DNA of 64,000 bases. Source: Bacteroidetes bacterium GWF2_33_38 (lineage in GTDB: Bacteria > Bacteroidota > Bacteroidia > Bacteroidales > GWF2-33-38). The translations under genes and the position numbers were made by a program. Position 1 is the stretch's first letter. Each line of letters begins with the position of its first letter. The stretch covers positions 1-64,000 of the forward strand of contig MEOF01000049.1 of the NCBI GenBank assembly GCA_001769505.1. Reading direction: 5' to 3'. The notes beneath the pieces were generated by a model that worked only from the letters and a program-made list of their open reading frames with translations, was not told where the DNA came from and searched no databases. Below, piece after piece: positions 10,747 to 63,683 of this stretch.

Positions 10747-10776
10747 TTGATAAACGGGTTTATTTTTGTAATTTTG
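10747..10776 (+). promoter_or_regulatory. rpoD promoter
   Basis: TTG at 10747-10749, exactly 19 bases, then TAATTTTG at 10769-10776. This fits the Bacteroidota consensus with no mismatch in the conserved positions and lies 20 bp before the chosen ATG at 10797. Confidence 0.75.
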
Positions 10777-10796
10777 GTAAACTAAATTAATTGGTA

Positions 10797-11660
10797 ATGA
10801 GGCAACTTAAAATTTCAAAGCAAATTACAAATCGCGATACAGCCTCATTAGATAAGTATCTTCAAGAGATTAGTAAAGAAGTTTTAATTACTGCTGATGA
10901 AGAGGTCGAATTGGCGAGAAAAATTCGTGAAGGTGATAAAAATGCTCTTGAAAGGCTAATAAAAGCAAATTTACGATTCGTTGTTTCAGTTGCCAAACAA
11001 TACCAAAATCAAGGTTTGTCGTTACAAGATTTAATCAATGAAGGAAATTTAGGTCTTATAAAATCAGCGGAACGTTTTGACGAAACTCGAGGATTTAAAT
11101 TTATTTCATATGCTGTTTGGTGGATTCGCCAAGCAATTTTACAAGCTTTAGCCGAACAAGCTAGAATTGTACGATTACCCTTGAATAAAATAGGTTCATT
11201 AAAAAAAATCAATCGCACGTTGGCAAAACTCGAACAACAATTTGAACGAGAGCCAACTGCCGAGGAAATTGCTAAAGAGCTTGAAATCGCACCAAGTGAA
11301 GTTGCAAGTGCAATGGGAAATTCGTTTCGATATGTATCAATGGACGCTCCTTTAAGCAACGACGACGATAGTTCAATGTACGAAGTTTTACGCGACGAAG
11401 ACGCTCATAAACCCGACGATAATTTATTGGACGAATCGCTTCGAAAAGAAATTGAACGCTCATTAGCAACTCTGCCAAAGAGAGAAGCCGACACGTTGAG
11501 ATATTATTATGGATTAAATGGATTGCAACCACATACGCTCGAAGAAATTGGCGATATTATTGGTCTAACCCGCGAAAGAGTTCGCCAAATAAAAGAAAAG
11601 GCAATTCATAAGTTGAAAAATAAATCAAGAAGTAAAATCCTACGTACTTATTTAGGATAA
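10797..11660 (+). CDS. rpoD: Primary RNA polymerase sigma factor (RpoD/SigA)
   Basis: Sigma-70 of 287 residues from the ATG at 10797 (MRQLKISKQ). An upstream TTG two codons earlier is less likely because MRQLKI is the usual N-terminus in this phylum. Regions 1.2 ([10 protein letters not shown]), 2 ([23 protein letters not shown]), 3 and 4 ([35 protein letters not shown]) are all present. The protein lacks the long region 1.1 and non-conserved insert of E. coli RpoD, as is normal for Bacteroidota. It directs vegetative transcription from TTG/TANNTTTG promoters such as those seen in this window. Confidence 0.96.
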
Positions 11661-11712
11661 TAATAATATTCAAAACAATTTTAATTAACCAGACACTGTT
11701 TATCATTATATT

Positions 11713-12363
11713 ATGAGTCATTTAGTCGCCCCATCAATGCTTTCAGCCGATTTTGGAAATCTTAATAAAGATATAGAAATGATTAATAAAAGTGAAGCCG
11801 ATTGGTTTCATATTGATGTTATGGATGGTGTTTTTGTCCCAAATATTTCCTTTGGATTTCCGATAATCGGGGTCATTAAAAAAATGGCTAAAAAACCCTT
11901 AGATGTTCACCTAATGATTGTTAATCCCGAACGATATATTGTCGAATTTAAAAAAGCCGGCGCCGATATTCTTACTGTACATTACGAGGCTTGTTCGCAT
12001 TTACATCGTACAATTCAACAAATAAAACAAGAAGGTATGAAGGCAGGCGTTTCGCTAAATCCTCACACACCCGTTAATGTATTAAGTGAAATTATTTCTG
12101 AAATTGATTTAGTTTTAATTATGTCGGTTAATCCCGGATTTGGAGGACAACGCTTCATCGAAAATTCCTATCCAAAAGTAAAAGAACTGAAAGAACTTAT
12201 CATTCGCAAAGGCTCGAAAGCGTTAATCGAAATTGATGGCGGAGTTGACACATCTAATGCAAACAAACTTATCGAAGCAGGAGTTGATGTACTTGTAGCT
12301 GGAAGCTCTGTTTTTAAATCAGAAAATTCGACTAAAACAATTGCCGATCTAAAATTTCTTTAA
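11713..12363 (+). CDS. rpe: Ribulose-phosphate 3-epimerase
   Basis: A TIM-barrel epimerase of 216 residues that interconverts ribulose 5-phosphate and xylulose 5-phosphate in the pentose phosphate pathway. Signatures: APSMLSADFGNL, the metal-binding HIDVMDGVFVPN, HLMI near residue 68, MSVNPGFGGQRFI and EIDGGV near the phosphate site. It lies 52 bp after rpoD on the same strand and is probably partly co-transcribed with it. Confidence 0.96.
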   Translation: MSHLVAPSMLSADFGNLNKDIEMINKSEADWFHIDVMDGVFVPNISFGFPIIGVIKKMAKKPLDVHLMIVNPERYIVEFKKAGADILTVHYEACSHLHRTIQQIKQEGMKAGVSLNPHTPVNVLSEIISEIDLVLIMSVNPGFGGQRFIENSYPKVKELKELIIRKGSKALIEIDGGVDTSNANKLIEAGVDVLVAGSSVFKSENSTKTIADLKFL

Positions 12364-12385
12364 AATTTCGGTAATGTGGTCAAAA

Positions 12386-12772
12386 ATGATTTATGAGAAA
12401 GTATATTACGACTCTTGTGATAAAGATTCTATTTTAAGGTTGAATGGTGTGATTATAAAAGACTTACAGAAACAAGTATTTTCTATAGTTCTGGAGAACA
12501 ATGTTTATATTCGTCAGTTTTATTTGACTCAAAGGGTAGATTATTAACGAATAGTTCCTTAGATTACAATAATAATGATTTTTCGACTAGGATTTTATTG
12601 TATAATGATACTATGGTTTTACCATATGAAATAATTGAATATAAAAATGGTGTAAGAAAACCAGAAAAACATGTTTTTAATCTTAGAGAAGATGGTAGGA
12701 TCATAAGAAATTAAAACGTTTGGTAGTGATACGTTAGATTATTATCTATACAAATATGAGTTTTATGATTAA
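12386..12772 (+). pseudogene. Frameshifted remnant of a small unknown gene
   Basis: Coding-like sequence is spread over two frames. The first (from ATG 12386) gives about 20 residues, MIYEKVYYDSCDKDS. Another frame then carries roughly 95 residues including YKRLTETSIFYSSGEQ, LFDSKGRLLTN and VFNLREDGRIIR, ending at 12714. The first frame resumes with GSDTLDYYLYKYEFYD and a stop at 12772. The pieces read as one small protein broken by two indels. The family is not recognised. Two sequencing errors could give the same picture. Confidence 0.45.
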
Positions 12773-53611: not shown

Positions 53612-54496
53612 ATGGGAAAGTACAAAATTCAGATTTTTATTGAAAATTTGGTTTTATCGTTTTTAACGATGATCAAAATTTTGTTGACTTCACATTTTTT
53701 TCTTCGTAAACCCAAAAATGTAGTAGAAAATAAAGATTGTTTGATTTTAGGAAACAGTCCTTCGTTGGAAGAAACCATTAAAAACAATCCGAAATTTCTC
53801 GAAAACAAAGATTTATTTGCTGTAAATTTCTTTTGGAAATCGGAACTTTTTCCGAAAATTAAACCACGAAATTATGTAATTGTTTCTACAAATTATTGGG
53901 CACAACATCAAATTATTACGAATAAAGAAGGTCGATTAGCAACTTTTAAGGAAATTGCAAAAATAGTTGATTGGAAAATGTTTTTGTTTGTTCCAGCAAT
54001 GGCAAAAAATCACAAAACATGGAAAATTGAACTTGAAGCAAATAAAAATATTACAATTGTTTATTTCAATGTAACTCCTGTTGAGGGATTTACTTCGTTA
54101 AATCATTTTTTCTTCAAAACAGGTTTGGGAATGCCACGACCACACAATGTTTTAATTCCATCATTAAAATTTGCAATTGATTTGGGTTATGAAAATGCTT
54201 ATTTAATTGGTGCCGAACATTCGTGGCTGAAAGATTTGTTTGTTGGCGACGACAATAAAGTTTATTTAAGTCAAAAACATTTTTATGATGCAAAAACAGC
54301 AAAAGCAGAAGTAATGTACAAAGGCTCAACTGACGATGAACGAAATTTATCAGAAGTTTTAATGAAATTTGTATATTCTTTCAACAGCTATTATGTTTTG
54401 AATAATTATGCAAAATCTCGAAATGTAAAAATTTTCAATGCAACCGAAAATTCATATATTGATGCTTTTGAAAGAGTAAAACTTTCAACTTTATAA
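53612..54496 (+). CDS. DUF115/MptE-like protein, possible nonulosonate transferase
   Basis: A 294-residue protein. The Rossmann-like core starts with [15 protein letters not shown] and later has FAVNFFW and [10 protein letters not shown]. This GxSPSL...EHSW layout is shared by the 6-hydroxymethylpterin-kinase-like/DUF115 group, which includes Maf proteins that attach nonulosonic acids in flagellate bacteria. An N-terminal hydrophobic helix may anchor it. First gene of the glycan locus. Function inferred from neighbours; GT42-type sialyltransferases have a similar start and are an alternative. Confidence 0.65.
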
Positions 54497-54518: not shown

Positions 54519-55070
54519 ATGTCACAAAGTCAATTTCGAAAACATTTAAAATTTACGTTTAGAAATTCTATTCGTTTATTTTTCGCAAAAAGAAGATTAG
54601 AACATTGTGGTGATTGGGTTTTTATTGATAAAAACGTTGAATTTCAACGATTTCCTAAAAATATTTCAATTGATGATAATGTTGCCATAAAAGAAGGAAC
54701 TCGTATTTGTAGTTGTAACGAAAATGCAAAAATCAGCATTGGAAAAAACACAACAATTGGTTTTCATAATTTTATTTTTGCATCAAACAAAATTGAAATT
54801 GGCGACGATTGTTTAATTGCTCCATTTGTATATATTGTTGACAGTAATCATCAAGCAAAAAAAGGAATAAACATTAATCAACAACCAAACGAAACAGCAC
54901 CAATAAAAATTGGTAACGATGTTTGGATAGCCTCAAATGTTACCATTTTAAAAGGAGTTACAATTGGCGATGGAGCTATTGTTGCAGCAAATTCAGTTGT
55001 AAATAAAGATGTTGAACCTTATACAATCGTTGGCGGTTCACCTGTAAAATTTATTTCAAACCGTGAATAA
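54519..55070 (+). CDS. Hexapeptide-repeat acyltransferase
   Basis: A 183-residue left-handed beta-helix protein of the LbetaH O-acetyltransferase family. A stack of hexapeptides runs from about residue 45 to 170 ([54 protein letters not shown]). The catalytic-type His is in SNHQAK and the end is VGGSPVKFI. It probably acetylates a surface sugar. It begins 22 bp after the MptE-like gene. Confidence 0.85.
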
Positions 55071-55090: not shown

Positions 55091-55450
55091 ATGGATAAGA
55101 ACATTGTGAAAAATAAGAGTTTTGATTTTGCAATACGGATAATAAAACTATATCAATATTTACAAATTGAGAAAAAAGAATATATTTTATCAAAACAATT
55201 ATTAAGAAGTGGAACTTCAGTTGGTGCAATGGTTCGTGAAGCTGAACATGCAGAAAGTAAAGCCGATTTTATTCACAAACTAGCAATTGCTCAAAAAGAA
55301 ATAAATGAAACAATATATTGGTTAGAATTAATGAAAGCAACAGATTATTTAAATCAAACAGAATTTGAAACAATAAATAAAGATGCTTCAGAAATAATCA
55401 GATTAATAACAAGCATAATTAAAACAACAAAAACAAATTTGAAACAATAA
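55091..55450 (+). CDS. Four-helix bundle protein (S23/Avd-like)
   Basis: A 119-residue, all-helical protein. NKSFDFAIRIIKLYQYL, LSKQLLRSGTSVGAMVREAE and FIHKLAIAQKEINETIYWL are the family's recurring blocks. It is a common small protein in Bacteroidota, often in glycan loci, with no agreed function. It lies in the glycan locus flanked by A/T repeats (TTGTTAATTGTAAATT type). Confidence 0.88.
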   Translation: MDKNIVKNKSFDFAIRIIKLYQYLQIEKKEYILSKQLLRSGTSVGAMVREAEHAESKADFIHKLAIAQKEINETIYWLELMKATDYLNQTEFETINKDASEIIRLITSIIKTTKTNLKQ

Positions 55451-55562: not shown

Positions 55563-56264
55563 GTGAAACTAGGGTTTATAATATTATGTCGTTATAATTC
55601 ATCAAGATTACCAGGTAAAATCTTGCGAGAAATTAATGGAAAACCTATTTTGAAATACATTTTCGAAAGTTTATCGCAAGTTGTTTCACCTGAAAATATT
55701 ATTGTTGCAACTTCAGAAGAAGAAACTGATAATCCGATAGTTGAATATTGCAAAAAAAATAAAATTAATGTTTTTCGTGGTTCTTTAGAAAATGTTGCCG
55801 AACGGTTTTTAGAATGTGCAAAACATTTCAATTTAGATTATGCAACACGAATTAACGGAGATAATTTATTTATCGATTTGAATACTATTAAATCGATGCT
55901 GGAAATTGCTCGAAAAAATACTTTCGATTTGGTTAGTAACGTGAAAAATAGAACTTTTCCAAAAGGAATGAGTGTTGAAATGGTGAAAGTGAATTATTAC
56001 AACGAAATTTACAAAAAATTCAATAAGCCCGAACATTTTGAACACGTTACTATATATTTGTATCAAAACGATGCAGAACAAAATTTCTATTATTTTTTCA
56101 ATCAAACTTGCATAGAAGCGGCTGGAATTCAAATGGCAATTGACGACCAACATGATTTTGAAACCGCTTCAAAAATTATTGCTAAATTTGACCGTGAACA
56201 TTTTACATATTCTTTAAAAGAAGTTTTTGAAATTTATAAAAACGTGAATGAACAATCCATTTAA
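55563..56264 (+). CDS. Cytidylyltransferase, SpsF type
   Basis: A 233-residue nucleotidyltransferase. Its opening IILCRYNSSRLPGKILREI..KPI and the later NGDNLFID and GMSVEMV match SpsF-like CMP-transferases of spore-coat and glycan loci. It probably activates a sugar acid with CTP. It overlaps the NeuB-like gene by 17 bases, so the two are translationally coupled. Confidence 0.85.
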   Translation: MKLGFIILCRYNSSRLPGKILREINGKPILKYIFESLSQVVSPENIIVATSEEETDNPIVEYCKKNKINVFRGSLENVAERFLECAKHFNLDYATRINGDNLFIDLNTIKSMLEIARKNTFDLVSNVKNRTFPKGMSVEMVKVNYYNEIYKKFNKPEHFEHVTIYLYQNDAEQNFYYFFNQTCIEAAGIQMAIDDQHDFETASKIIAKFDREHFTYSLKEVFEIYKNVNEQSI

Positions 56265-57264
56265 AGGAAAATATGGTCCATTATTGATTGCCGAAATTGG
56301 TGGAAATCACGAAGGCAATTTCGAATATGCAATGAAATTGGTCGATTTGGCAATTTCTACAAATGTTGATTTCGTGAAATTTCAACTTTACACGGGCGAT
56401 ACTTTGGTTAGCCGAATTGAAAGTCCTGTAAGAAATTCGCATTTCAAAAAATTTCAACTAACCAAAGAACAACATATTGCAATTGCAGAAAAAATTATAA
56501 AAGCAGGAATTGGTTATATGGCTTCGGTTTGGGACGAAGAAATGATGCTTTGGATTGACAAATATATGCCAATTTATAAAATTGGTTCTGGCGATTTAAC
56601 TGCATATTCAGTTTTGAAAACCATTGCAAAAAAAGGAAAACCAATCATACTTTCTACAGGATTATCGACTGAAAATGAAGTTTTAGAAGCTGTAAAATAC
56701 ATTCAATCAATTGATAAAAAATATTTAAAACCAGAAAATTTAGCACTTTTGCAATGCACATCAATGTATCCAATAAATCACAGCGATGCAAATTTGAATG
56801 TGATGTCGAAATTGAAAGAATTAACAGGTTTAACCATTGGATATTCTGACCACACAATTGGCTGGAAAACATTAGCTTATTCGGTTGCAATGGGAGCCGA
56901 AATTTTAGAATTTCATTTTACCGATAGTCGTGAAGGAAAAGAATTTCGCGACCATAAAGTTTCGCTAATTCCAGAAGAAGTTATTGAATTAGAAAACGAA
57001 ATTCAATTTATTCAAAGCATAAAAGGAAACGAAACTAAAAAACCTTTGCAAATTGAAGAAGAAAATGGTCACGTTCAATCGTTTCGTCGTGCTGTTTATC
57101 CAAAATTTGATTTAAAAGCTGGAACTGTTTTAAGCGAAGAAAATTTAATTTGTCTTCGTCCAAATTCAGGAATTGACGCACGTGATTTTGAAAAACTTAT
57201 TGGAAAAACCACAACAATTGATTTACTTGCACATCAAAAATTAGATTGGAAAAATATTAAATAA
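56248..57264 (+). CDS. neuB: N-acetylneuraminate/nonulosonate synthase (NeuB/SpsE family)
   Basis: A 338-residue enzyme condensing a hexosamine-type sugar with phosphoenolpyruvate. Barrel signatures: LIAEIGGNHEGNFEYA, FVKFQLYT, ILSTGLSTENEV, LLQCTSMYPI and LTIGYSDHTIGW. The C-terminal SAF (antifreeze-like) domain begins about residue 275 (SFRRAVYPKFDLKAGTVL). Whether the product is a sialic, legionaminic or related acid cannot be told; the epimerase and dehydratase genes are not in the window. Confidence 0.9.
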   Translation: MNNPFKGKYGPLLIAEIGGNHEGNFEYAMKLVDLAISTNVDFVKFQLYTGDTLVSRIESPVRNSHFKKFQLTKEQHIAIAEKIIKAGIGYMASVWDEEMMLWIDKYMPIYKIGSGDLTAYSVLKTIAKKGKPIILSTGLSTENEVLEAVKYIQSIDKKYLKPENLALLQCTSMYPINHSDANLNVMSKLKELTGLTIGYSDHTIGWKTLAYSVAMGAEILEFHFTDSREGKEFRDHKVSLIPEEVIELENEIQFIQSIKGNETKKPLQIEEENGHVQSFRRAVYPKFDLKAGTVLSEENLICLRPNSGIDARDFEKLIGKTTTIDLLAHQKLDWKNIK

Positions 57265-57269
57265 AAAAC

Positions 57270-57300
57270 TTGTGACAGCCGTATTGATTTTGTATATTTG
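57270..57300 (+). promoter_or_regulatory. Promoter of the DUF6364/PIN pair
   Basis: TTG at 57270-57272, 20 bases, TATATTTG at 57293-57300. It gives the toxin-antitoxin pair its own transcription start inside the glycan locus. Confidence 0.65.
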
Positions 57301-57318
57301 TACGACAAAATTACAATT

Positions 57319-57564
57319 ATGGACTCGAAATTAACAGTTAGATTAGATAGTGCCGTTATTGAAAAAGCAAAAGAATACGCTAGAATTCACAATATTAGCG
57401 TTTCTCGAATGATTGAATCATACTTAAATTCAGTTACTCAACAAAAATCAAAAGATATTGAAATTACTCCATTAGTTGAAAGTTTAATTGGTGTAATAAT
57501 AGTTGATACTGATCATGAATTCAAAAAAGATTATAGTGATTATCTATCTGAAAAATATAAATGA
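57319..57564 (+). CDS. DUF6364-like antitoxin
   Basis: 81 residues from the ATG at 57319 (MDSKLTVRLD); an ATG seven codons earlier would lie on the promoter's -7 box. The N-terminal ribbon-helix-helix-like segment reads KLTVRLDSAVIEKAKEYA, followed by SVSRMIESYL. It overlaps the PIN toxin gene by 4 bases. It should bind DNA and neutralise the PIN protein. Confidence 0.85.
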   Translation: MDSKLTVRLDSAVIEKAKEYARIHNISVSRMIESYLNSVTQQKSKDIEITPLVESLIGVIIVDTDHEFKKDYSDYLSEKYK

Positions 57565-57977
57565 AGAAGCTATTTATTGATACCAATATTGTTATTGATT
57601 TACTTGCAAAAAGAGAACCTTTTTACGAAGACGCAGCAAAACTTTTTTCACTGGCTGATAAGAATAAATGTAAATTGTACTTATCAACGTTGACATTTGC
57701 AAACATTAATTATATTTTGCAAAAAACAAATTCAGTTACATCTACTCGAGAAATTTTGAGGAAATTTAAAATACTAATTTCAATTTTATCAATTGATGAT
57801 AAAATAATTGATTTAGCTCTTAACGATAATAAATTCATTGATTTTGAAGACGCAATTCAATATTATTCAGCAATTGAAAACAATCAAGACATTATTATTA
57901 CAAGAAATTTAAAAGATTTTACACACTCAAAACTTCCCGTAATGACAGCAAGTGAATTTATTAAAACGATAAAATAA
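57561..57977 (+). CDS. PIN-domain ribonuclease toxin (VapC-like)
   Basis: A 138-residue PIN-domain protein. The acidic metal-binding residues are visible in LFIDTNIVIDLL (Asp at residue 6 and 12), Glu near residue 98 (FIDFEDAIQYY) and IITRNLKDF near the C-terminus. Overlap with the antitoxin start confirms the pair. RNase target unknown. Confidence 0.9.
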   Translation: MKKLFIDTNIVIDLLAKREPFYEDAAKLFSLADKNKCKLYLSTLTFANINYILQKTNSVTSTREILRKFKILISILSIDDKIIDLALNDNKFIDFEDAIQYYSAIENNQDIIITRNLKDFTHSKLPVMTASEFIKTIK

Positions 57978-57983
57978 AAATCA

Positions 57984-58607
57984 ATGTTTTTATCTATACA
58001 TCAATATTATACAAGAAATATTTGCAAACTAAAAGGCAAACTTTTTCGCTTTTTAGTTTCATCTAAAAATTTGAAAATTGGTAAAAATTTTCAGTGCGAT
58101 ACATTTCCAAGTTTGATGATTGATAAAAACAGCAAAATCACAATTGGCGACAATGTAATTTTCAAACGCAATGTTGAAATTCGGGCACACGCAACTTCAG
58201 AAATGATAATAGAAAACAATGTAAAAATTGACCGAGGAGTTCGACTTTTATCGAATAATAATGCGAAATTACACATTTCGGAAGGAGCAAGAATTGGACT
58301 TTATACAGTTTTCAATGGTGGCGACAGCATTTTTATTGGTAAAAAAGTTTTGATTTCGGGATTTGTTTACATTCAAACAAGTATGCACAATCACGAAAAA
58401 TCGAAATCAATTCAAGAGCAAGGATATTCGCACGCACCAATTGTTTTGCACGACGATGCTTGGTTGGGAGCTCACGTTTCGGTTTTGCCTGGCGTTACCA
58501 TCGGAAAAGGCGGAGTTGTTGGAAGCAATGCTGTGGTTACCAAAAATGTTGCTGAAAACGAAGTTGTTGCTGGAGTTCCTGCAAAAGTTATTAAAGAACG
58601 AGAATAA
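57984..58607 (+). CDS. Hexapeptide-repeat acyltransferase
   Basis: A 207-residue LbetaH acyltransferase. An N-terminal basic segment is followed by hexapeptides from about residue 50 to 190 (ITIGDNVIFKRNVEI, ISEGARIGLYTVFNGG, AWLGAHVSVLPGVTIGKGGVV, VVAGVPAKVI). Probably modifies a sugar or the growing glycan. It starts 6 bp after the PIN gene. Confidence 0.85.
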   Translation: MFLSIHQYYTRNICKLKGKLFRFLVSSKNLKIGKNFQCDTFPSLMIDKNSKITIGDNVIFKRNVEIRAHATSEMIIENNVKIDRGVRLLSNNNAKLHISEGARIGLYTVFNGGDSIFIGKKVLISGFVYIQTSMHNHEKSKSIQEQGYSHAPIVLHDDAWLGAHVSVLPGVTIGKGGVVGSNAVVTKNVAENEVVAGVPAKVIKERE

Positions 58608-58613
58608 TTTAAA

Positions 58614-59993
58614 ATGAATATTCAAACACCATTAGTTACGGTTTATATCACCAATTTCAATTATGGCAAATACATCAAACAAGCCATCGAAAGTGTTTTA
58701 AATCAATCGTTTCAAGATTTTGAAATAATAATTATTGACGACGGTTCAACCGATAATTCGAAACAAATTATTGAAAGTTTTTCGCATCATTCAAAAATTC
58801 AAGTCATTTTTCAACAAAATAAAGGTTTAAATGTAACCAATAATATTGCTTTACGTGTTGCTCAAGGCAGATACATAATGCGTTTAGATGCTGACGATTA
58901 TCTCGAAAAAAATGCTTTGGAATTAATGTCCGAAGTTTTGGAAAAAGATGCTGAACTTGGTTTGGTTTTTCCTGATTATTTTATGGTGGATGCTCAAGGC
59001 GATGTAATGAATATTGAAAAACGACATTCGTTCGAAAAAGAAGTTTCGCTTTTAGACCAACCTGCTCACGGAGCCTGCACAATGATACGCAAAAAGTTTC
59101 TTCAATCGCTTGGCGGATACGATGAACAATTCAAATGTCAAGATGGATACGATTTGTGGATACGTTTTACAGCAAAATATAAGGTTACAAACATAAACAC
59201 TCCATTGTTTTATTATCGTCAACACGGTGAAAATTTAACATCGAACGAAAATAAAATTTTAGATACACGAGCTGCAATTAAAGAGAAATTTATTGCAAAT
59301 AATATTTCAAATTACGATGATGCAATTGCAATAATTCCAATTCGAGGAACAAAATACGACAGCAAAAATGTTGCTTTTATTGAATTGAATGGCAAAAAAG
59401 TTGTTGATTTAAAAATTGAACAAGCTTTAAAAGCTGAAAAAATTAATAACATTGTGATTTCATCTCCAGATGAAACTGTTGGTGAATATATTGCTGAAAA
59501 ATATCCAAACAACAATAAAATAATTTTTCACAAACGTCCCGAAAAATTTGCTCGCCACAACACAAGTTTAGCCGAAACAGTTGCTCACGTTATTCAAATG
59601 GAAGAATTAAAACATTTGAAAATTGAAATAATTGTGCTTTTGTCGGTTGAATTCCCATTTATAAAAACACAAACTATTGAAGATGCAATAAACACAATTC
59701 GCATTTTCAAAACCGATAGTTTAATAAGCGTTCGCCAAGAAATGAACACATTTTTTCAGCACGATGGAAGCGGAATGAAACCAATTTTAAATCAAGAAAA
59801 TTTCACAAAACTCGAACGTGAAGCATTGTACAAAAATACAGGTGGAATTATTGCTGTAAACCGTGAATTTTTCGATAAAAATAAAAGTTTAATTTCTGGA
59901 ACTGTTGGGCATATTGTTGTAAATCAATTATCTTCACTTAAAATCCAAACCAAACTTGATTTGGAAATTGCAGAATTTATTGCAAGAAAATAA
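58614..59993 (+). CDS. GT2 glycosyltransferase fused to a CMP-sugar synthetase-like (NeuA-like) domain
   Basis: A 459-residue protein. Residues 7-225 are a GT2 fold (VTVYITNFNYGKYIKQAI, IIIDDGSTDNS, the DxD-like RLDADDYL, DGYDLWIR). Residues about 240-459 resemble a CMP-acylneuraminate synthetase (IPIRGTKYDSKN, VVDLKIEQALKAEKINNIVIS, RPEKFARH..LAETVAHVI, SLISVRQE). Of the usual catalytic residues, Arg and Lys near the start are kept; others look changed. Activation and transfer of a nonulosonate may be joined in one chain. Confidence 0.75.
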   Translation: MNIQTPLVTVYITNFNYGKYIKQAIESVLNQSFQDFEIIIIDDGSTDNSKQIIESFSHHSKIQVIFQQNKGLNVTNNIALRVAQGRYIMRLDADDYLEKNALELMSEVLEKDAELGLVFPDYFMVDAQGDVMNIEKRHSFEKEVSLLDQPAHGACTMIRKKFLQSLGGYDEQFKCQDGYDLWIRFTAKYKVTNINTPLFYYRQHGENLTSNENKILDTRAAIKEKFIANNISNYDDAIAIIPIRGTKYDSKNVAFIELNGKKVVDLKIEQALKAEKINNIVISSPDETVGEYIAEKYPNNNKIIFHKRPEKFARHNTSLAETVAHVIQMEELKHLKIEIIVLLSVEFPFIKTQTIEDAINTIRIFKTDSLISVRQEMNTFFQHDGSGMKPILNQENFTKLEREALYKNTGGIIAVNREFFDKNKSLISGTVGHIVVNQLSSLKIQTKLDLEIAEFIARK

Positions 59994-60077: not shown

Positions 60078-63000
60078 ATGAAGCCATTTAAACTGTTTTT
60101 AACATTAATAATCAACCTTTTAATTATTTTTTTATCCAATGCACAAATTGGAACTGTGTTATCATACAGCAAAATAAGTTCTACATTTGGAAACTTTTCT
60201 GGAACACTTGACAGTGATGATGGCTTTGGTCGAGCAATTTCTATTGGAGATTTTGATGGAGATAATATTAATGATATTGCTGTGCCAGCTTCTGGAGATG
60301 ATGATGGTGGTTCAAACAGAGGAGCAGTTTGGCTTTTGATGTTGAATGAAGACAAAACTGTTAAAAATTATTACAAAATAAGTTCAACAAGTGGTGGTTT
60401 TGGAATAGGACTAGATAATGAAGATATTTTTGGTGCATATGTTTGCAATTTGGGAGATATAGATGGCGATGCTGTCACAGATATAGCTGTAAGTGCATGG
60501 GGAGATGACGATGGAGGAACAAATACGGGTGCCGTTTGGATTATATTTCTAAATTCTAATGGAACTGTGAAAAATAAGCAAAAAATTTCTGCTTTAGAAG
60601 GCAATTTTATAGGAGATTTAGATGCTGTTGACATGTTTGGAATTACAGTTTCAAGTTTAGGTGATTTGGACGATGATGGTATAACGGATATTGGCGTATC
60701 AGCAAGAGATGATGATGATGGCGGGACTGATAGAGGAGCCGTTTGGATATTATATTTATATTCTAATGGAACTGTAAAAACACACTCAAAAATAAGTAAT
60801 ACTTCTGGTGGTTTTTATGGACAACTAGATGATTACGATTGGTTTGGTCGTGGATTAGCCAAAATTGAAGATTTAAATGGAGATGGTATTAATGAATTTG
60901 TCATTGGGTCTATGCAAGATGATGACGGAGGAACAGATAAAGGGGCAATTTGGATTTTATTTATGAATAGTGATGAAACTGTAAACTATTACCAAAAAAT
61001 AAGTGCAACACAAGGAAATTTCAATGGAGTTTTGGATGCTGGTGATAACTTTGGTAGAAGTATTTGTAATATTGGAGATATAGATAATGATGGTATTTGT
61101 GATATTGTTGCAGGAGCTTATGACGATGACGATGGAGCTACAAATGCAGGTGCTTTTTGGGTTCTTTTATTAAATAGTGATGGCACAGTGAAAGATTATC
61201 AGAAAATAAGTAGTTTATTTGGAGGTTTTACGGGCATATTAGATGCTGGAGATTATTTTGGCGTATCTGTAGAACTTTATCTTGCAAATACAAATTCATT
61301 CGAAGTACTAGTTGGAGCTGTTTCAGATGATGATGGTCAAAGTGGAGCCGGTGCTGTTTGGATATTAACAATTGGAAATTTAGAAACTCCTACCGTAGAA
61401 ATTATTCAAACCTGCGAAAATAATTCTATTTTGTTAACAGCCCAAATCAATTTGAATTGTTCAATATTATGGAGTACAGGCGATACATCATTAAGTATAA
61501 TTGTTCCTAATGTAGAAAATTCATATTCAGTTATTGCATCTATTGATGGAAATAATGCTACCGATAGTATTTACATTAAAGATAGTTTACAAACATTTAA
61601 TGACTTACTAATTCTTTCACTCCCATTCAACGGAAATGCCATTGATGAGTCTGGAAATGGGAATAATGGTATTATTGAAAATGGAACGACTTTAACAACA
61701 AATAGGTTTGGCGAGGAAAATAAAGCTTATTTTTTTGATGGAATAGATGATTATATTTTAATAACACCAATTACAGATGTTTCTGAAATTGGTGATTTTA
61801 CAATTTCTCTTTGGGCATATTGCGAAGGTTGGGAAAATCAACCTGGTTTATCAATAGGATATTTAGATCATCAATATATTTTTGATGGTCATTCTCGATC
61901 AGGAACTGTAACTTCTGATTTTTTTAGAGACGGCATCCACGTTGATTACAATCAAAAAACTGATTATCACGAAACAACTTATAACGTAACACGAGATTTA
62001 GAAACCAACAGTTTTGTAAATGAATTTGATTTTGCAAATGATTTATTATTCAAATGGCATAATCTAGTTTTTATAAGAAAAAATGACAGTACTTACCATT
62101 ATTTTGATGGGAATCTGATTTCTGTAAAGTTAAATAATAATTCGCTTTTAAATATGCAACACGACTGGCATATTGGAACATTTTCTGCCAATAATCATAA
62201 TTATAGCTCAATGAATTATAACTTTTTTGGTAAAATAGACGACATATTATTTTATAATAAAGCGTTAAACAATTGTGAAGTGCAAAATTTATTTAATCAA
62301 AATTCAACTATCCCTAATATTGGAATAGTCAACAACGATACAACAATTTGTACAGGAAGTTCAATTATTTTAAGAGCTAATGAAAATAGCACATATACAT
62401 ATTTATGGAATACAAGCGAAACAACAGCTTCAATTTCAGTTTCTCCAATCGAAACCACAGAATATTTTTTAACAATTACCAATGGAGCAAATATTTTTGT
62501 TGATAGCATAACCGTAAATATAAGTCCTAATCCCGTTGTTAATTTAGGCGGCGACTTTTCACAATGTGAGGGCAATCCTATTGTATTAGATGCTGGTAAT
62601 GACGGAACATATAATTGGCAAGATAACTCCATAAATCAAACTTTTTCTGTAACTCAAACGGGATTATATTCTGTAACTGTTACTAATCTTTATGGCTGTT
62701 CTGATTCAGACAGTGTTTTAATAAGCATTCTTTCAACACCTTCAGTTACAATACTGGGAAATCCTTATTTTTGTACAACAAACACAACAATGTTAACTGC
62801 CGAGGGAGGTGATTTGGGAGCATCTTACCATTGGTCAAACGGGTCTGATTTAGCAGAAATTACGGTCTCAATAGGAGGAGTTTACTCCGTAACGGTTATA
62901 AACTCTAATGGATGCGAAGATGAAAATTTTGTAACAGTTGTTGAAAGCCTTAATCCGATTGTTAATTTAGGCGACGACTTTTCGCAATGTGAGGGCAACC

Positions 63001-63683
63001 CTATTGTATTAGACGCTGGTAATGACGGAACATATAATTGGCAAGATAACTCCATAAATCAAACTTTTTCTGTAACTCAAACGGGATTATATTCTGTAAC
63101 TGTTACTAATCTTTATGGCTGCGAAACATCTGACAATATTTTTGTTACGATTAATCAGTTACCTTCATCGCCTATAGAAAATACCAATATTACTTTTGAA
63201 CAAGATGTCGACACAGTCATTACGCTAAATGCCGATAATGGAGAAAATAATATGGCCTATTTTTGGGAAGAAACTAATGATACTTCAAAAACAATAATAG
63301 TTTCAACAAATGGCATTTTTAATACTTTAAACTACAACGTAATAATAGAAAATAAAAACACGGGGTGTAGTATTACGATTACATATACAATAACTAAAGC
63401 CCAGATGGATATTCATCCGTATAATGTTATTACAGCAAACGATGATGGTTATAATGACTATTGGGAGATTGATAATATTGTACTATACCCTGAATCAACT
63501 GTTATAATTTTCAACAGAAATGGGAATACAGTATATGGTCCTCAAAAAGATTACGAAAATTCAACTAAATTCGACGGGACATACAATAATAAACATTTAC
63601 CAGCAGCGACTTATTTTTATATTATTGATCTATCAAAATATTCAAAAAAACAAATAAGAGGTTCCTTAACAATTTTAAGATAG
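60078..63683 (+). CDS. Large T9SS-secreted protein: FG-GAP repeats, LamG-like domain, Ig-like repeats, type B sorting domain
   Basis: A 1201-residue exported protein (signal peptide to about residue 22). Six FG-GAP/integrin-alpha-type repeats occupy about residues 28-420, with calcium motifs such as DFDGDNINDI and DLDDDGITDI. A LamG-like jelly roll lies about 515-725 and several Ig-like modules follow (WNTSETTASI, YHWSNGSD). A CHU_C type B domain ends the protein (NVITANDDGYNDYW to the last strands). A -7 box TATATTTG is at 60054-60061. Probably an adhesin; partner PorP not adjacent. Confidence 0.9.
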   Translation: MKPFKLFLTLIINLLIIFLSNAQIGTVLSYSKISSTFGNFSGTLDSDDGFGRAISIGDFDGDNINDIAVPASGDDDGGSNRGAVWLLMLNEDKTVKNYYKISSTSGGFGIGLDNEDIFGAYVCNLGDIDGDAVTDIAVSAWGDDDGGTNTGAVWIIFLNSNGTVKNKQKISALEGNFIGDLDAVDMFGITVSSLGDLDDDGITDIGVSARDDDDGGTDRGAVWILYLYSNGTVKTHSKISNTSGGFYGQLDDYDWFGRGLAKIEDLNGDGINEFVIGSMQDDDGGTDKGAIWILFMNSDETVNYYQKISATQGNFNGVLDAGDNFGRSICNIGDIDNDGICDIVAGAYDDDDGATNAGAFWVLLLNSDGTVKDYQKISSLFGGFTGILDAGDYFGVSVELYLANTNSFEVLVGAVSDDDGQSGAGAVWILTIGNLETPTVEIIQTCENNSILLTAQINLNCSILWSTGDTSLSIIVPNVENSYSVIASIDGNNATDSIYIKDSLQTFNDLLILSLPFNGNAIDESGNGNNGIIENGTTLTTNRFGEENKAYFFDGIDDYILITPITDVSEIGDFTISLWAYCEGWENQPGLSIGYLDHQYIFDGHSRSGTVTSDFFRDGIHVDYNQKTDYHETTYNVTRDLETNSFVNEFDFANDLLFKWHNLVFIRKNDSTYHYFDGNLISVKLNNNSLLNMQHDWHIGTFSANNHNYSSMNYNFFGKIDDILFYNKALNNCEVQNLFNQNSTIPNIGIVNNDTTICTGSSIILRANENSTYTYLWNTSETTASISVSPIETTEYFLTITNGANIFVDSITVNISPNPVVNLGGDFSQCEGNPIVLDAGNDGTYNWQDNSINQTFSVTQTGLYSVTVTNLYGCSDSDSVLISILSTPSVTILGNPYFCTTNTTMLTAEGGDLGASYHWSNGSDLAEITVSIGGVYSVTVINSNGCEDENFVTVVESLNPIVNLGDDFSQCEGNPIVLDAGNDGTYNWQDNSINQTFSVTQTGLYSVTVTNLYGCETSDNIFVTINQLPSSPIENTNITFEQDVDTVITLNADNGENNMAYFWEETNDTSKTIIVSTNGIFNTLNYNVIIENKNTGCSITITYTITKAQMDIHPYNVITANDDGYNDYWEIDNIVLYPESTVIIFNRNGNTVYGPQKDYENSTKFDGTYNNKHLPAATYFYIIDLSKYSKKQIRGSLTILR
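62529..62698. repeat. Direct repeat copy 1 inside the FG-GAP protein gene
   Basis: A 170-bp segment repeated 423 bp downstream at 62952-63121 with about six differences; the last 113 bp are identical. It encodes one Ig-like module. Recent duplication or gene conversion. Confidence 0.85.
62952..63121. repeat. Direct repeat copy 2 inside the FG-GAP protein gene
   Basis: Second copy of the 170-bp module repeat; see copy 1 at 62529-62698. Confidence 0.85.

Follow-up and report, generated by a model that had tools for sequence, protein, structure and literature searches.

The window, a 64,000-nt stretch of Bacteroidota DNA, carries at 58614–59993 (+ strand) a gene for a 459-aa protein in which a predicted GT2 glycosyltransferase is joined to a NeuA-like domain that appears to have lost its catalytic residues and kept its dimerisation arm. 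On balance, and with modest confidence, we read this protein as a GT2 enzyme with a pseudo-cytidylyltransferase that would serve dimerisation or docking in an SpsF/NeuB nonulosonate pathway. The gene is one uninterrupted reading frame of 459 codons, and its description in the initial annotation as a GT2 domain followed by a NeuA-like domain was borne out by PF00535 and PseF profile matches, by hhalign and by the predicted structure. The GT2 catalytic half (residues ~6–230; 58629–59303, +) matched PF00535 above the cut-off over residues 9–164 (7e-30, 104.6 bits), and D42-D43, D92, D94 and D95 were invariant in an alignment of the fusions, with both the DD and the DxD motif present. The profile match and these motifs identify the protein as a predicted GT2 glycosyltransferase.

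Residues ~236–459 (59319–59990, +) are predicted to form a complete NeuA/PseF-fold domain, on the evidence of hhalign, AlphaFold2, Foldseek and VIA-align. Against the curated cut-offs, single-profile scores were mixed: the PseF model TIGR03584 aligned to residues 238–456 with an E-value of 1.4e-12 and 50.4 bits, far below its equivalog cut-off of 205.7, and PF02348 (cut-off 22.6) fell just short when the whole protein was scanned (22.0 bits) and just passed for the isolated domain (23.9 bits). A profile of five fused C-terminal domains matched canonical NeuA end to end (hhalign, 99.4%, 217 columns). AlphaFold2 modelled the C-terminal half with a pLDDT of 92.4 and a pTM of 0.88 from a 47-row alignment that contains canonical NeuAs and is thus biased toward the NeuA fold; the fold assignment also rests on the hhalign match, which is independent of the model. 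A prediction for the full protein from a 4-row alignment was poor in its C-terminal part (pLDDT 57.8) and was excluded from the fold claims. The best PDB match of the C-terminal model was 6ifd (Foldseek 8e-18; VIA Z 26.8, rmsd 2.9, 221 residues aligned), followed by 9t4z, 1eyr, 1qwj and 9ftc, and the top matches were CMP-sialate synthetases. The comparison with NeuA that the initial annotation had proposed for this half thus returned a nucleotidyltransferase fold. In a tree, the fusion domain was placed on a long branch among NeuAs and apart from SpsF, a position on which descent from the SpsF of the same locus was rejected.

The residues that canonical enzymes use for catalysis are largely missing from this domain. 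Work on the Neisseria and Vibrio enzymes assigns nucleotide binding to R12, S15, K16, K21 and N22, cytosine reading to R71, Mg binding to D209 and D211 and a part in quaternary organisation to Q166, and it places Q104 and T106 at the sugar and R165 at the sugar carboxylate (PMC2901514; PMC6580227). In the Neisseria enzyme, D211A lowered kcat 15,000-fold and D209A was worse (PMC2901514). A phmmer alignment to 6ifd placed K443-I-Q445 (59940–59948, +) where the Mg-binding D-I-D would stand, and the aspartate pair was lost in 7/7 fusions (K/Q, G/Y, A/Q, H/N, G/K and T/R, with L136 also lacking the pair), a broken copy in L043 included. Among 23 canonical NeuAs from related genomes, D209 was present in 22 and D211 in all. 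S15, K21, T106 and Q166 were likewise present in 23/23 canonical NeuAs and lost in all five of the intact fusions found first, and N22, present in 22/23, was lost in the fusions. Most nucleotide and sugar contacts (the equivalents of S15, K21, N22, Q104, T106 and Tyr179) were gone from the fusions. What remains of the CTP-binding loop (residues 241–256; 59334–59381, +) differs in length among members and in the window keeps R12 as R244, with S15, K16, K21 and N22 lost. Both R12 (R244) and R71 (R308) were retained in 5/5 of the intact first-found fusions; given that these residues contact the beta-phosphate and the cytosine, respectively, in CMAS, the C-terminal domain may still bind a nucleotide.

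The NeuA-pattern motifs cited in the initial annotation were all located, at residues 241–252 (IPIRG..SKN), 258–272, 308–310 and 320–327, but the SKN was misleading. Its position is shifted by two residues from the canonical K21-N22, and the other fusions carry NNR, ASE, NT or MDG there, so that it was ruled out as the mark of an intact loop. Two options had been raised for the domain. That of joined activation and transfer found no support, since residues needed for CMP-sialate synthesis were missing in every member; that of a degenerate synthetase put to another, possibly regulatory, use agrees both with the loss of catalytic residues and with regional conservation indicative of selection. 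From these losses, we infer that the fused C-terminal domain is non-catalytic.

The best-conserved part of the domain is its predicted dimerisation arm (residues 378–413; 59745–59852, +; motif FxxHxGxGMxxIL..KLEREALY..GG), which was found in both the aligned and the modelled domain. In the fusions, identity relative to the domain mean was 1.54-fold in the arm, 0.97-fold in the CTP loop and 0.68-fold in the DxD region, compared with 0.58–1.15, 1.41–2.72 and 0.87–2.10, respectively, in quintets of canonical NeuAs; these ranges come from 6,000 random sets of five that share sequences, and are therefore descriptive and carry no p-value. Conservation in this enzyme is normally lowest in the dimerisation domain, and it takes the arm of the partner to complete a NeuA active site (PMC6580227). 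Invariant residues occupied 15/36 arm positions and included H383, K399, E401 and R402. L136, an out-of-sample member from another class that was detected by profile only after the motif had been defined, still shows the central part of the arm motif (FRHGPEGL ... FERERHYRFNGAI), and its CTP loop and DxD are gone. These patterns support the view that the fold and the dimerisation arm have been kept under selection, with conservation apparently inverted relative to canonical NeuA, and they turn it into a direct, testable claim, namely that selection keeps the arm and not the active site. The conserved arm could, alternatively, serve a new ligand site rather than dimerisation.

The fusion lies in a predicted surface-sugar operon whose conserved genes begin with an MptE-like protein (53612–54496, +). 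PF01973, a family that includes Maf-type proteins, was sub-threshold on this protein in all copies scanned (best 1.9e-5, in L001), and it is possibly a candidate Maf-like nonulosonate transferase. There follow a conserved hexapeptide acyltransferase (54519–55070, +; PF00132), an SpsF-type cytidylyltransferase with intact catalytic motifs (55563–56264, +; PF02348, 3.5e-29), a NeuB-family synthase with an SAF domain (56248–57264, +; PF03102, 8.7e-59) and, directly upstream of the fusion, a further hexapeptide acyltransferase (57984–58607, +; PF00132) that holds the same position in L042 and L044. The separate SpsF-type transferase that had been noticed in the locus is thus present, and its motifs RYxSxRLPGK, RINGDN and IDxxxD were kept in six loci with one change (P to H, in L045). 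The order MptE-like protein, acyltransferase, SpsF, NeuB, methyltransferase or acyltransferase, and fusion recurs in L001, L042, L043, L044 and L045, commonly with a flippase or YfhO-like protein next after the fusion, and intact SpsF and NeuB stood beside every fusion copy seen. In L154, an acyltransferase is followed by SpsF-NeuB as one 571-aa reading frame and then by the fusion; this fused SpsF-NeuB (10768–12483, −) adjoins a divergent GT2-pseudo-NeuA gene, and the joining suggests that SpsF and NeuB work as a complex.

Other genes in the window's operon were missing from the gene order of the relatives. These were a 23S rRNA-intervening-sequence four-helix protein (55091–55450, +; PF05635, 1.4e-28) and, at 57298–57977 (+), an 88-aa reading frame overlapping a PIN-domain (VapC-like) gene, which together resemble a toxin-antitoxin pair. 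Directly downstream of the fusion (60078–63683, +) lies a gene for a large protein with FG-GAP repeats, a laminin-G-like domain and a type IX secretion signal of the CHU_C kind, possibly a surface protein.

Two carrier genomes, G282 and G004, bear on which enzyme activates the sugar. Each has one NeuB, that of the locus, and the sole other full PF02348 gene outside the locus is KdsB-like as read from its sequence, so that, the fusion aside, the in-locus SpsF was the one enzyme of this class detected that is not of the Kdo type. Because of this, sugar activation in G282 and G004 most likely rests on SpsF. The window's own genome carries a second, apparently complete nonulosonate locus (L049; G000:C45:60000-78000) with NeuB, NeuC-like and PtmE-like proteins and an intact NeuA.

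The same two-domain protein was found in six other genomes, intact in L001, L042, L044, L045 and L136 and broken in L043, and these six ruled out a frameshift or assembly artefact as the source of the fusion. The broken copy, from G047 (L043, 143–1236, −), is short by ~110 codons across the domain junction and out of frame, and is either a pseudogene or an assembly error near the contig end. Of 393 genomes sampled from the order, four were carriers, and the class and phylum samples each added one; because the carriers are scattered, we suggest that the cassette has moved horizontally. The phage and viral collections searched gave matches to the GT2 only.

We propose that an ancestral GT2 acquired a NeuA/PseF-type domain, which would then have lost its CTP, Mg and most sugar contacts while selection kept the fold and the arm. 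The operon's NeuB would make a nonulosonic acid, or an ulosonic acid of a similar kind, and SpsF would convert this product to a CMP sugar; the fused domain would itself activate nothing, and would instead dimerise the GT2 or dock it to another pathway protein or intermediate, coupling sugar transfer to nonulosonate supply. The dimer or docking role and the identity of the sugar are putative parts of this scheme. The main rival to it, which we consider unlikely and yet give serious weight, is a ligand sensor or donor/acceptor-recognition module whose remodelled pocket would bind CMP, a CMP-nonulosonate or a nonulosonate-terminated acceptor and gate the GT2. Such a module would account for the retention, in the five intact first-found fusions, of the R71 equivalent (the cytosine contact in VcCMAS; PMC6580227), for the invariant arm residues, which in NeuA reach the neighbour's pocket, and for the linkage to SpsF/NeuB, but it sits poorly with the loss of most nucleotide and sugar contacts and with a CTP-loop remnant of variable length. 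Rather doubtful, in our judgement, is a repurposed NeuA with a rebuilt arm and pocket (H383, K399, E401, R402 and H433) that would sense CMP-nonulosonate, or bind the SpsF-NeuB pair, and so gate or channel the GT2; the physical SpsF-NeuB complex that it involves fits because the two are fused in one relative, and if true, this reading would make the protein a point at which a pseudoenzyme controls the assembly of nonulosonate glycans.

Among the remaining explanations, it is improbable that the NeuA domain is an inactive leftover of a formerly bifunctional protein, decaying without a present role. Its sequence does diverge more quickly than that of the GT2 half (35–54% vs 62–71% identity among fusions) and the L043 copy is broken, but that break also takes out GT2 sequence near a contig end, full length has been retained over two classes together with the invariant arm positions and new family-specific residues, and inverted conservation is not expected from neutral decay. 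We think it very improbable that the C-terminal half still produces CMP-nonulosonate, in an active site that has been rearranged, and passes this product to the GT2: glycosyltransferase-NeuA fusions do exist (PMC7248181), R244 and R308 are retained and NeuB is in the operon, but against this stand the absence of the metal aspartates from every member and of S15, K21, T106 and Q166 from the five intact first-found ones, the crippling of the Neisseria enzyme by D209A and D211A (PMC2901514), and an ever-present intact SpsF that leaves no need for a second activator. The partner's arm completes NeuA active sites (PMC6580227) and contig C45 of the window's genome encodes an intact NeuA, which would suit a heterodimer in which the fusion lends arm residues to a canonical NeuA encoded elsewhere; we hold this highly improbable, as the relatives detected in G282 and G004, the fusion aside, were all of the Kdo or SpsF type, and the missing NeuA partner in these two carriers rules it out as a general rule. 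The GT2 with a dimerising or docking pseudo-cytidylyltransferase is the reading we retain.

Among kinases, pseudoenzymes are a familiar class. The open-licence papers searched yielded neither a CMP-sialate synthetase family member described as non-catalytic nor, next to an intact SpsF, a glycosyltransferase fused to a NeuA half that is non-catalytic and arm-conserved; such a negative is weak evidence of absence. The initial annotation had called either use of the fusion, joined activation and transfer or regulation, unusual; glycosyltransferase-NeuA fusion has a precedent in Campylobacter (PMC7248181), and it is the non-catalytic version that was not found in those papers. Annotation pipelines could label such a protein a bifunctional synthetase, leading to misleading predictions of nonulosonic acid pathways.

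The precedent is C. jejuni cgtA/neuA1 (orf5/10), a GalNAc transferase fused to a CMP-Neu5Ac synthetase (PMC7248181). Judged by description, it resembles the window's fusion in that a NeuA domain is attached to a glycosyltransferase and NeuB is encoded in the same locus (PMC7248181), but NeuA1 is counted among the sialate-synthesis genes, whereas the NeuA half in the window is degenerate, with residues of a catalytically complete half lost, and a separate SpsF is present. The legionaminate pathway of B. subtilis, where legionaminate transfer depends on SpsF and the CMP-Leg step is assigned to it, likewise pairs a NeuB-type synthase (SpsE) with an SpsF-type cytidylyltransferase (PMC7439481). Unlike that pathway, the window's locus has no precursor genes adjoining. 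The B. subtilis system is not known to include a GT2-NeuA fusion. SAR11 fusions (L002, 7998–9248, +; L003, 584–1837, +) also place a NeuA-like half after a GT2, and NeuB adjoins in L002, but their losses are reversed: the CTP loop is retained, the dimerisation arm is absent and D211 has become H; in the tree they grouped apart from the family of the window's fusion, and they probably represent a separate fusion event or a different fate. With the CMP-Neu5Ac and CMP-pseudaminate synthetases themselves (NeuA and PseF; 6ifd, 1eyr and 9ftc), the fusion domain has in common the whole-domain fold (Z 23–27, rmsd 2.7–2.9), profile homology, R12 and R71, and the dimerisation arm; it differs from them in lacking the metal aspartates, the CTP loop, K21/N22, T106 and Q166, in its inverted pattern of conservation and in its placement behind a GT2.
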